A stretch of DNA of 64,000 nucleotides from Halomonas fontilapidosi (lineage in GTDB: Bacteria; Pseudomonadota; Gammaproteobacteria; Pseudomonadales; Halomonadaceae): positions 682,001-746,000 of the forward strand of contig NZ_JACHXQ010000001.1 of NCBI RefSeq assembly GCF_014192285.1, in the 5' to 3' direction. The notes under the pieces are model-generated. The model ran no database searches. It saw only the letters and a list, made by a program, of their open reading frames with translations, and had not been told where the DNA came from. Within the stretch, counting starts at the first letter, position 1. Every line of letters begins with the position of its first letter. Below are positions 5,980 through 8,513 of the stretch, one piece after another. The translations under genes and the position numbers were made by a program.

Positions 5980-6938
5980 GCGCGTGCCTCCGCTGCGTCG
6001 GCCGCCGCCTTGTCGCTGTTGCCCTGCTCCACCATGGAGACGAACATCTCCTCGAGCCGGTTGGCGCGGTTGCGCATCGACATTACCTGCAGCCCCTGAG
6101 CACTGAGCGCCTCGAAGACATCGTTGAGGCGCTGACCGCGGTGCACCACTACCGCCAGCTGAGCGGCATCGACACGATTCACTTCGAAACCTTCCACTTC
6201 GGGCGCGGCCTCGACGGGGTGCGCCAGGTCGAGCAGGAAGGTCTCGGTATCGAGTTCGGCGAGCAGGTCACGCACGCTGGTGTCACGAATGATCTCGCCG
6301 TGGTTGATGATCCCCACGTTGCGGCACAGGCTCTCGGCTTCCTCGAGATAGTGGGTGGTGAGGATGATGGTGGTGCCCTCGTCGCGATTGATGCGGCGCA
6401 TGTACTCCCACATGCTGCGGCGCAGCTCGATGTCCACACCGGCGGTGGGCTCGTCGAGGATCAGCAGCTTGGGCCGATGCATCAGCGCCCGGGCAATCAT
6501 CAGCCGACGCTTCATGCCGCCGGAGAGCATCCGCGCGCTGCCGTTGCGCTTGTCCCACAGGCCCAGGTCGCGCAGCAGTTCCTCGGCCCGGGGCAGCGCC
6601 TCGCGACGCGACATGCCGTAATAGCCGGCCTGAGCCAGCACGATGTCGATGACCTTCTCGAACTGGTTGAAGTTGAACTCCTGGGGCACCACGCCGAGAT
6701 GATACTTGGCCCGGGCGAAGTCGCGGTCGATATCGATACCGAAGATCGAGACCTGGCCAGCGGTCTTCTGCACCAGCGAGCAGACCACCCCCAGGGTGGT
6801 CGATTTACCCGCGCCGTTGGGGCCTAGCAGGGCATAGAAGTCGCCCTCGGCGACGTCGAGGTCGATGCCTTTCAAGGCATGGAAGCCATTGCCATAGACC
6901 TTGCTCAGGCCACGGATGGACAGTGCCGGTTCGGCCAT
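5976..6938 (-). CDS. yadG: ABC transporter ATP-binding protein (YadG-like)
   Basis: A 320-residue cytoplasmic ATPase that powers the YadH permease. Walker A is GPNGAGKST (near residue 41), the Q-loop follows in VVPQEFNFN, the ABC signature is RMLSGGMKRRL, Walker B is LLILDEPTAGVD, and the H-loop is LTTHYLEEAE. The C-terminal ~100 residues are the variable domain of ABC-2 ATPases. The start MAEPALSIRG was chosen because it aligns with the family; 25 codons of open frame upstream look non-coding. It is the first gene of the yadG-yadH-queF unit. Confidence 0.93.
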   Translation of the reverse strand: MAEPALSIRGLSKVYGNGFHALKGIDLDVAEGDFYALLGPNGAGKSTTLGVVCSLVQKTAGQVSIFGIDIDRDFARAKYHLGVVPQEFNFNQFEKVIDIVLAQAGYYGMSRREALPRAEELLRDLGLWDKRNGSARMLSGGMKRRLMIARALMHRPKLLILDEPTAGVDIELRRSMWEYMRRINRDEGTTIILTTHYLEEAESLCRNVGIINHGEIIRDTSVRDLLAELDTETFLLDLAHPVEAAPEVEGFEVNRVDAAQLAVVVHRGQRLNDVFEALSAQGLQVMSMRNRANRLEEMFVSMVEQGNSDKAAADAAEARA

Positions 6939-7130
6939 GTGCGATCCCGTCAGAGAGGAGTGAATGTTGTCGCGCAAAACCGGAGAGATGGGGGGTGACC
7001 GCTGAAACTTCAAGGTTGGCCGTGCCCAGCCGGTGAAGCAGGCAGGAGCATGCTGACTCGGATCTCACCCGACGAAGTGAAACCGGCATGGGTAGACTGT
7101 TGCCGAAGAAGGTAGGGCGTGCAGGCGAGA

Positions 7131-7206
7131 TGGCGTCCCATAGGGGGTTCGAACCCCTGTTACCGCCGTGAAAGGGCGGTGTCCTAGGCCACTAGACGAA
7201 TGGGAC
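7131..7206 (-). tRNA. tRNA-Glu (anticodon TTC), copy 1
   Basis: A 76-nt tRNA with encoded CCA. The anticodon loop CTTTCAC gives TTC; the T-loop is TTCGAAC. It differs from the other two Glu copies by a small change in the D-arm region (GTGGCCTAGGAC versus GTGGTCCAGGAC). It is the last gene of the array in the direction of transcription. Confidence 0.96.
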
Positions 7207-7223
7207 GCAAAGGAGATTCGAGA

Positions 7224-7245
7224 TGCAGCGGGAAACGAGATTCGA
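7224..7245 (-). repeat. Partial tRNA-Gly 3' end, copy a (imperfect)
   Basis: 22 nt matching the last 22 nt of the tRNA-Gly genes (half of the T-loop, the 3' T-stem strand, the 3' acceptor strand), except that the terminal CCA is GCA here. It lies in the spacer 17 bases before tRNA-Glu copy 1. No tRNA body is attached. Confidence 0.85.
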
Positions 7246-7303
7246 CTGGGCCGACACATCGGATCGTGACCCGAGCCTTGGCTCGATACCACTTGTTCAA
7301 GCT

Positions 7304-7325
7304 TGGAGCGGGAAACGAGATTCGA
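7304..7325 (-). repeat. Partial tRNA-Gly 3' end, copy b
   Basis: A 22-nt exact copy of the tRNA-Gly 3' end including CCA, in the spacer downstream of tRNA-Gly copy 1. The bases 7304-7464 (fragment, spacer, tRNA-Gly) recur at 7568-7728 with the same length of 161 bases and a single difference noted (C/T just after the fragment). Confidence 0.9.
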
Positions 7326-7389
7326 CCGGGCTGGCGTTCCAGCTCGTGAGCCGAGCCTTGGCCTGATCAAATATGCTACCCAAACCAAA

Positions 7390-7464
7390 TGGAGCGGGAA
7401 ACGAGATTCGAACTCGCGACCCTCGCCTTGGCAAGGCGATGCTCTACCACTGAGCTATTCCCGC
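7390..7464 (-). tRNA. tRNA-Gly (anticodon GCC), copy 1
   Basis: A 75-nt tRNA with acceptor stem GCGGGAA/TTCCCGC, anticodon loop TTGCCAA (anticodon GCC), T-loop TTCGAAT and encoded CCA. It appears identical to copy 2. Confidence 0.96.
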
Positions 7465-7488
7465 AGGTCTCGCAATGTCAAACCGAAG

Positions 7489-7564
7489 TGGCGTCCCATA
7501 GGGGGTTCGAACCCCTGTTACCGCCGTGAAAGGGCGGTGTCCTGGACCACTAGACGAATGGGAC
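7489..7564 (-). tRNA. tRNA-Glu (anticodon TTC), copy 2
   Basis: A 76-nt tRNA with encoded CCA and anticodon TTC. It is preceded in the transcript, only three bases away, by the stray tRNA-Gly 3' end at 7568-7589, so its 5' processing site abuts that fragment. Confidence 0.96.
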
Positions 7565-7567
7565 GCA

Positions 7568-7589
7568 TGGAGCGGGAAACGAGATTCGA
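7568..7589 (-). repeat. Partial tRNA-Gly 3' end, copy c
   Basis: A 22-nt exact copy of the tRNA-Gly 3' end with CCA, three bases upstream of tRNA-Glu copy 2 in the transcript. Together with its spacer it repeats the 7304-7389 segment. Confidence 0.9.
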
Positions 7590-7653
7590 TCGGGCTGGCG
7601 TTCCAGCTCGTGAGCCGAGCCTTGGCCTGATCAAATATGCTACCCAAACCAAA

Positions 7654-7728
7654 TGGAGCGGGAAACGAGATTCGAACTCGCGACCCTCGCCTTGGCAAGG
7701 CGATGCTCTACCACTGAGCTATTCCCGC
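7654..7728 (-). tRNA. tRNA-Gly (anticodon GCC), copy 2
   Basis: A 75-nt tRNA with anticodon GCC and encoded CCA. It is 264 bases from copy 1, consistent with a tandem duplication of a Gly-spacer-Glu unit. Confidence 0.96.
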
Positions 7729-7751
7729 ACTCCGTTACCTGATGAGTCGAG

Positions 7752-7827
7752 TGGCGTCCCATAGGGGGTTCGAACCCCTGTTACCGCCGTGAAAGGGCGG
7801 TGTCCTGGACCACTAGACGAATGGGAC
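7752..7827 (-). tRNA. tRNA-Glu (anticodon TTC), copy 3
   Basis: A 76-nt tRNA with anticodon TTC and encoded CCA. It is the first gene of the array, about 30 bases downstream of the -10 box of the array promoter. Confidence 0.96.
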
Positions 7828-7857
7828 GCAATGTCTCGCCTCGTCGAGGTGCGGCGA

Positions 7858-7886
7858 ATATTACCCAGGCTTCGGGATGCTGTCAA
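7858..7886 (-). promoter_or_regulatory. Strong sigma-70 promoter of the Glu/Gly tRNA array
   Basis: On the minus strand a perfect TTGACA (7886-7881) and TAATAT (7863-7858) are exactly 17 bp apart, followed by a GC-rich discriminator (TCGCCGC). This is the best promoter match in the window and fits a highly expressed, growth-rate-controlled tRNA operon. Confidence 0.88.
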
Positions 7887-8021
7887 GCGCATCAGGCGGG
7901 GCGTTGATATCGCGTGTTCGATTCCTCTGCGTGACTGGAAACACCCACCCGGGTTGGTGTCAGAATGGAAGAGGAGATACGCCGGGCCCTCGACCCCGGC
8001 GCCAGGACAAGGAGAGAGGCC

Positions 8022-8423
8022 ATGCGCAGCAAGATCCAGAAGAGCGATGCCGAATGGCAGCAGCAGCTGACACCCGAGCAGTACCGCGTCACCCGCCAGA
8101 AAGGCACCGAGCCGCCCTTCAGTGGGAAGTACCATGTGAGTGACGAGCACGGCATCTATCACTGCGTGTGCTGCAACGCCCCGCTGTTCGAGAACGAGCA
8201 CAAGTTCGATGCCGGCTGCGGCTGGCCAAGCTTCGACCGCCCCTTCACGTCGAACTGCGTGGCAGAACAGACCGATACCAGCCACGGCATGCAGCGCACC
8301 GAGGTGACCTGCGCGCGCTGCGATGCCCACCTCGGCCATGTGTTCCCCGACGGTCCGCCGGAGACCACCGGGCTGCGCTACTGCATCAACTCGGTGGCGA
8401 TCCAGTTCCACGCCGGGGAATAG
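8022..8423 (+). CDS. msrB: Peptide-methionine (R)-S-oxide reductase MsrB
   Basis: Reduces the R epimer of methionine sulfoxide in proteins, using thioredoxin. The 133-residue cytoplasmic protein shows both zinc-binding CxxC pairs (CVCC and CARC), the conserved [10 protein letters not shown] and [10 protein letters not shown] segments, and the catalytic cysteine in [12 protein letters not shown] near the C terminus. The start [12 protein letters not shown] follows AGGAGAGAGG; an in-frame upstream ATG lacks a comparable site. The partner MsrA is encoded separately at 54.6 kb and is exported, so the two act in different compartments. Confidence 0.96.
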
Positions 8424-8453
8424 TCTCTGCCGGTCACAGCCCTCCCCTGAGGC

Positions 8454-8481
8454 GGCCGCCCATCTGCTATAGTGGGCGGCC
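8454..8481 (+). promoter_or_regulatory. Extended -10 promoter inside an inverted repeat (msrB/ylqF junction)
   Basis: Arms GGCCGCCCA (8454-8462) and TGGGCGGCC (8473-8481) form a 9-bp inverted repeat around a 10-base loop. The loop carries an extended -10 element, TGCTATAGT (8465-8473), for ylqF. The same sequence, followed by ATTTTCATT, could act as the msrB terminator. Confidence 0.5.
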
Positions 8482-8513
8482 ATTTTCATTGATGCGCATG
8501 CAGGAGAGGCTCG

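Follow-up and report, generated by a model that had tools for sequence, protein, structure and literature searches.

Introduction

The closest described counterparts of the repeats reported here are the tRNA-linked repeats (TLRs) of Escherichia coli, with tyrT/tyrV (RttR/rtT) as the founding case. They occur repeatedly in tRNA operon spacers, each joining a conserved core to a tail that varies from tRNA to tRNA. Known since 1978, TLRs repeat at their 3' end (18-19 bp) that of the gene just upstream; according to a 2021 paper, no function is known for them beyond what it reports for three rRNA-operon copies, an early claim for tyrT having been withdrawn (PMC8144298). Those three copies (RrA, RrB and RrF), which are transcribed and processed, showed binding to both Hfq and CsrA in vitro (PMC8144298); they are members of the TLR family but sit behind 5S rRNA. 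Other reports place rtT-like elements among dispersed BIMEs (PMC2965389) and report the Rfam family RtT in Pasteurellaceae (PMC4986893).

Two further systems invite comparison. At the att sites of integrative elements, an intact tRNA gene has downstream of it a displaced copy running from the T-loop to CCA, and tRNA fragments left by integration are common (PMC9897764). 3'ETS-leuZ is a small RNA from a pre-tRNA transcript that sits behind leuZ. Here we compare with these systems a Halomonas fontilapidosi tRNA operon whose spacers hold stray copies of the tRNA-Gly 3' end.

Results

Stray tRNA-Gly tails in a Glu-Gly operon

The window, by which we mean the entire 64-kb stretch of DNA analysed, carries five ARAGORN-called tRNA genes on the minus strand of 7131-7827, in the order Glu-Gly-Glu-Gly-Glu, and the operon features given below all lie on that strand. 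A promoter-like TTGACA-17-TAATAT (7858..7886; a consensus match only) lies 31 nt 5' of the operon's first gene, tRNA-Glu(TTC) (7752..7827), which is followed by tRNA-Gly(GCC) (7654..7728). From the CCA end of this tRNA-Gly to the CCA of the first stray copy extends unit A (86 nt; 7568..7653). Sequence and alignment place in it a module, CTGGAACGCCAGCCCGA (7590..7606), which replaces T54, and then stray tail A (7568..7589), an exact copy of tRNA-Gly from T55 to CCA; T54 and T55 are given in standard tRNA numbering. After the next tRNA-Glu(TTC) (7489..7564) and tRNA-Gly(GCC) (7390..7464) comes unit B (86 nt; 7304..7389), with module CTGGAACGCCAGCCCGG (7326..7342) and an exact tail (7304..7325), and then unit C (80 nt; 7224..7303), with a 5' part unlike that of the other units, module CCGATGTGTCGGCCCAG (7246..7262) and a tail with one mismatch (GCA; 7224..7245). 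A 13-nt partial tail, TCGAATCTCCTTT (7209..7221), lies just ahead of the operon's last gene, tRNA-Glu(TTC) (7131..7206). Each unit thus starts directly 3' of the CCA of tRNA-Gly or of the preceding copy, and downstream of tails A, B and C lie 3 nt and a tRNA-Glu, 58 nt and the next copy, and 17 nt and a tRNA-Glu, respectively.

When the 22-mer was sought with up to three mismatches throughout the window, it occurred five times, at the two tRNA-Gly ends and the three stray sites. A first-pass annotation of this DNA had reported three such copies in the spacers; we confirm them as two exact copies and one with a single mismatch, against a mean of 0.00 in shuffles (n=100). They terminate a longer repeat of 64 nt whose copies are 78-80% alike, and the 165-nt repeat formed by tRNA-Gly and its unit is 99% identical between the unit A and unit B versions. 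The alignment with relatives that the annotation had proposed as a check finds copies and module across Halomonadaceae genomes (see below), and the stray copies are conserved rather than due to chance.

A consensus scan found two overlapping promoter-like sites, located only 5' of the operon, against a shuffle mean of 0.2; terminator-like matches in 6900-8100 numbered one (7254-7242, 5 pairs) against 1.0 in shuffles. With a promoter-like site before the first gene and a terminator match at chance level, the spacers are probably transcribed together with the tRNAs. A 153-aa open frame runs antisense to the operon (7303-7764, plus strand); it is probably not a protein gene, because its sequence merely complements the tRNA genes and units. 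The partial tail at 7209-7221 carries a CTCC allele that is absent from the three Gly(GCC) genes of this genome and present in relatives, and it is perhaps the remnant of an older unit.

All three Gly(GCC) genes of this genome have a copy. The fourth copy lies 3' of the third gene, in a Gly-Cys-Leu operon; its unit has diverged, while a 16-nt tail is intact at 73 nt behind the tRNA-Gly(GCC). No T-arm-like copies were seen in the scanned stretches around 54 other tRNA genes of the genome, where the scan returned two Met matches with 2-3 mismatches.

Comparison with the E. coli elements

The window units lie downstream of a tRNA gene in a tRNA operon, their 3' ends repeat that of the upstream gene over 22 nt, and they number three in this operon and one in the Gly-Cys-Leu operon, within the one to five copies per locus of TLRs. 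The first-pass annotation had drawn an analogy to tyrT and rtT, and for architecture it holds, since E. coli TLRs likewise end in the 3' end of the upstream gene. As judged from sequence, the units work like TLRs while standing outside the E. coli sequence family. Eight K-12 regions were examined, and four of them yielded 13 TLR copies, a count that drops three opposite-strand copies caused by a false antisense tRNA call (L363). These copies sit behind Tyr, Lys and Arg, share by eye a core around GCCCGAAGGG and have tails that start at position 58-59, whereas the window family has core CYGGNNYGCCRGYCCRR, tails from T55, and the tRNAs Gly and Asp. No copies were found in K-12 glyVXY, glyW-cysT-leuZ, leuVPQ and thrU-tyrU-glyT-thrT. 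The Gly-Cys-Leu order of one locus here is also that of the 3'ETS-leuZ region, but that K-12 region is without a tail copy. In the window, the E. coli core GCAACGGCCCGAAGGGCGAG had 0 matches at up to three mismatches, and Rfam RtT gave no match: cmscan of 6500-8500, up to E 1, returned only tRNA and sub-threshold Tymo_tRNA-like matches.

A conserved module within variable units

Related loci reveal how the units are built. From the first 95 loci we drew 97 distinct units of 33-198 nt, the list covering units of up to 260 nt. Conservation covers their last 54 nt, where the 5' strand of the T-stem is followed by the 17-nt module, which substitutes for T54, and by the tRNA 3' end. The stretch before most copies reads GGGTCGCGAG-CYGGNNYGCCRG-YCCRR, then TCGAATCTCGTTTCCCGCTCCA, and its first ten bases correspond to tRNA-Gly, namely to the variable loop and the 5' strand of the T-stem. 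Upstream of this stretch, the 5' parts differ in sequence and length and look by eye locus- or clade-specific; a second module of 15-17 nt is present in some units. The nearest upstream feature is a tRNA-Gly(GCC) or another copy in every unit listed except one (L068), which stands behind a tRNA-Glu and an intervening run of N. In some hosts the element's T-stem is imperfectly paired (GTGAG versus CTCCT).

The first 95 loci were found via the tail, so that its conservation there holds by construction, whereas that of the module does not. When copies were sought by the tail alone, 43 of 47 had the module within two mismatches, at a distance of 25-26 or 40-41 nt upstream, and shuffled flanks never did better than four mismatches. 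Two observations made by eye concern individual spacers behind tRNA-Gly. A second unit at L096 (genome G265) resembles a tRNA-Gly that is degenerate yet almost complete, its variable region, T-loop and acceptor 3' strand interrupted by palindromic insertions; and the spacers of L068, L094, L096 and L107 contain terminator-like hairpins with T runs, repeated along with the tail in some of these arrays.

Covariation suggests a compact fold of the module

Mutual information among 108 distinct elements, including at least three outside tRNA loci (L093, L169, L220), was strongest between columns 17-26, 28-32 and 22-31, with nearly all combinations Watson-Crick. Since the rows of alignment A1 had been chosen for helix 16-19/24-27 and are circular for it, we used instead A2, comprising 76 of 80 listed rows; it omits L169 and L220, which lie outside tRNA loci, as well as L021:344 and L058:53, and retains the L093 row and several second modules. 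In A2, pair 22-31 is C-G in 59 rows, U-A in 14 and other in 3; pair 28-32 is C-G in 45, U-A in 26 and other in 5; pair 17-26 is U-A in 53 and C-G in 23; and pair 23-30 is G-C in 74 of 76, although the rows are related and these counts overstate the independent events. The covariation score was reached by 0 of 500 shuffles, and slid controls stayed at or below 0.196 against 0.476; counts of pairs or pair types in A2 were not above shuffles, and the relatedness of the sequences inflates the remaining measures. Within the window, the differences between units B and C at pairs 17-26, 19-24 and 22-31 leave the pairing intact at all three; unit A has C-A at 28-32.

Pairs 22-31 and 23-30 link the hairpin loop with the 3' flank and thus indicate an H-type pseudoknot. 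The covariation suggests that the module forms a 4-bp stem whose loop would pair with the 3' flank (an H-type mini-pseudoknot), plus one further coupled pair. The proposed pseudoknot has just two loop-flank pairs and a tight crossing. Similar Y-R coupling is seen by eye in most of the 15-nt second modules.

Other folds fared differently. An acceptor/T-stem minihelix, at which single folds had hinted (mean z -0.98 for 86 units that are not independent), is unsupported: complementarity between the variable 5' part and the tail was not above shuffles in 28 independent parts (mean z +0.12, p 0.40), and the reversed-tail control was weaker than shuffles (mean z +0.31, p 0.017). Just 3' of the tRNA CCA, hairpins form somewhat more often than in shuffled controls (31 parts, one of which contains N; mean z -0.88, p 0.014). 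In the energy model, applied to the competition in folding that the first-pass annotation had suggested, the 5' acceptor strand of tRNA-Gly prefers the copy over its own 3' strand as partner in 21 of the 24 representative precursors, but the model is non-discriminating, as a fully shuffled unit likewise drops the tRNA's own pairing, to 0.16.

Tails follow the neighbouring tRNA

The tail varies with the tRNA that precedes it. Copies in hosts with a CTCC allele have C in 18 of 18 cases; of 28 copies in hosts with a CTCG allele, 23 show G, the others T or A, and none C. In two genomes that each hold both tRNA-Gly alleles at two loci (G099 and G109), every copy fits its own locus. The same holds for other tRNAs. 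Genus g23 has the module behind tRNA-Gly(CCC) in L171-L173, where the tRNA was called and the tail is the end of that tRNA with one base off, and two copies of Gly(CCC) type at a contig end (L180) are exact. In the Val-Asp operons of families f6 and f38 (L225, L227, L229, L231 and L233), the module follows tRNA-Asp(GTC), the tail of the units being the tRNA-Asp end, exact to a few changes; one of these copies (L225) has lost its tail end.

Units also come and go with exact borders. A gap of 4 nt separates Gly from Glu at some loci of genus g28, and at others a unit precedes the same 4-nt flank; Gly-Glu spacers of genus g32 span 3-4 nt in some genomes, as against 94-102 nt in one that has the element. 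Tandem arrays have fixed periods of 107 nt (L076), 125 nt (L068) and 84 nt (L039), and decayed copies are recognisable by eye (L302, L312). Presence or absence with exact borders is the expected outcome if the tail recombines with the 3' end of the tRNA. The suggestion in the first-pass annotation that the fragments mark recombination points accordingly gains support, both from this pattern and from the match of tails to the adjacent tRNA allele.

Distribution

How widespread is the element? Units of this kind stand behind particular tRNA genes of many salt-loving bacteria. A survey of the family was anchored on the 5' part of the Gly(GCC) gene, which is independent of the element and matched in 48 of 56 genomes; it took in 126 Gly(GCC) genes from 40 of those 48, plus earlier loci, and includes one gene that a contig end leaves with no spacer (L253) and a locus containing N (L268). 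A tail copy follows 39 of the 126 genes, spread over 21 of 40 genomes and over 11 of 19 genera, and the module with a diverged tail follows 8 more (47 of 126 in total); three module-like matches with four mismatches far downstream (L260, L264, L305) look like chance and were left out. Gly-Glu spacers measure 80-362 nt with the element (n=27) versus 3-79 nt without it (n=31). Since most Gly(GCC) genes in the survey have no unit and decayed copies exist, the unit is dispensable.

With module and flanks as the pattern (up to three mismatches), 91 of 201 family genomes and 13 of 24 genera match, some of the matches lying outside tRNA loci. At the level of the order, 29 of 390 genomes match, including three only outside tRNA loci (G068, G870, G899), and the element was seen behind tRNAs in four families (f1, f6, f38, f43); it thus occurs in at least three families besides that of the window. 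A class-wide sample that held few genomes of the order gave 2 matches in 369 genomes, both in the window's family. Model R1 matches 129 of 145 genomes, mostly via the tRNA itself, as it also recognises real tRNA-Gly ends, and only spans of at least about 50 nt were counted as elements. Named carriers of an exact copy include Halomonas, Chromohalobacter, Modicisalibacter and Salinicola, and further Alloalcanivorax, Thalassolituus, Saccharospirillum and Aliikangiella.

The module in dispersed repeats

In several bacterial families, the module CYGGNNYGCCRGYCCRRTCGR, with a few mismatches in some cases, is also found in dispersed intergenic repeats whose ends are inverted, as judged by eye (L162-L168, L319-L321, L326, L328, L346-L357), near the middle of each. 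One genome (G894) has 14 exact module matches, five of which were read, and in 3 of 12 sources a stretch beside the module matches the Xanthomonas sRNA sX9 below cut-off. Exact matches in L331, L343-L345, L358 and L360 fall within long open frames and are probably due to chance. No exact module match was found outside the tRNA operon in the window's own genome. Because the module is present in dispersed repeats away from tRNAs, the reason for its conservation may have nothing to do with tRNA. A parallel exists in the rtT-like elements that an earlier report places among BIMEs (PMC2965389), the module here being likewise carried by MITE-like dispersed repeats.

Discussion

On balance, we consider it probable that the stray copies are the tails of a second TLR family with a different core, one undescribed in the open-licence literature searched, in which we found no papers on such repeats in other groups. 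How might such units arise and persist? We envision a scenario whereby the units are, very likely, transcribed together with the tRNAs, and whereby recombination between a tail and the adjacent tRNA 3' end would homogenise the tail and remove or copy whole units, a step that we regard as likely in view of tail tracking and of exact presence and absence. Selection on the RNA fold would then, with good probability, keep the module. More tentatively, and by analogy, the precursor might be cut in such a way that a CCA-ended RNA of about 80-86 nt is released, as for E. coli RttR; this product could act as a mimic of a tRNA end or as a modulator of tRNA-Gly (or tRNA-Asp) maturation. The first-pass annotation had likewise raised processing into a small RNA, and a product ending in CCA is plausible given that rttR is annotated as terminating at the CCA of its tail copy. 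This RNA reading draws on covariation and the RttR precedent.

Several of these observations would also follow if the units were neutral repeats, founded by tandem duplication of a tRNA 3' half together with a captured palindrome and spread and homogenised by unequal crossing-over and gene conversion, with no RNA function. Arrays of fixed period, presence and absence between relatives, decayed copies and the tracking of tails in cis all fit such an origin. What makes it improbable in our eyes is the module: the 17 nt are absent from a normal tRNA, so that conversion by tRNAs cannot keep them, yet they are kept across at least four families, with compensatory changes, while the 5' part of the unit diverges. 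Alternatively, the units may be miniature integrative or cassette-like elements that a recombinase inserts at the T-loop of tRNA-Gly or tRNA-Asp, the folded module serving as recognition site and the unit's own copy of the tRNA 3' end restoring the gene as it displaces the original end. Copies running exactly from the T-loop to CCA would be explained, as would the g28 units that sit between CCA and a 4-nt flank otherwise found directly after CCA, and the tandem units with different 5' parts (units B and C). Much of the T-arm (GGTCGC, in most followed by GAGTTCGA) is alike in the target tRNAs, the module recurs in dispersed MITE-like repeats, and integration-derived tRNA fragments are common (PMC9897764). 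This alternative appears unlikely to us, however, as the units have no room for a gene and their 5' parts look by eye locus- or clade-specific and not mobile. Its conventional form, an att remnant with a recombinase gene between the tRNA and the displaced end, was rejected because the units are too short (80-86 nt here); units of about 65-200 nt, tandem copies, a conserved module and the lack of room for an integrase gene set the window family apart from att remnants. The units may still be ancient remnants of integrative elements.

If the stray copies indeed belong to a second TLR family, as we favour, then its other core, other tRNAs and covarying fold would provide an independent comparative data set, which would separate the constants of these repeats (the position behind a tRNA, the copy of the neighbour's end, a compact fold in the T-loop) from accidents. 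The conserved module and the further tRNAs, Gly(CCC) and Asp, extend the picture beyond the tRNA-Gly(GCC) of the first-pass annotation, and related genomes with and without units form natural pairs for comparing tRNA-Gly processing. Speculatively, and with considerable doubt, TLRs might represent a general and convergent design, in which unrelated structured cores, each also found in the dispersed repeats of its lineage, were taken up, in different gammaproteobacterial lineages, by the T-loop of a tRNA 3' half that had been duplicated, and would be kept as cis-acting RNA modules that bear the end of the neighbouring tRNA for joint processing or for action on its maturation.
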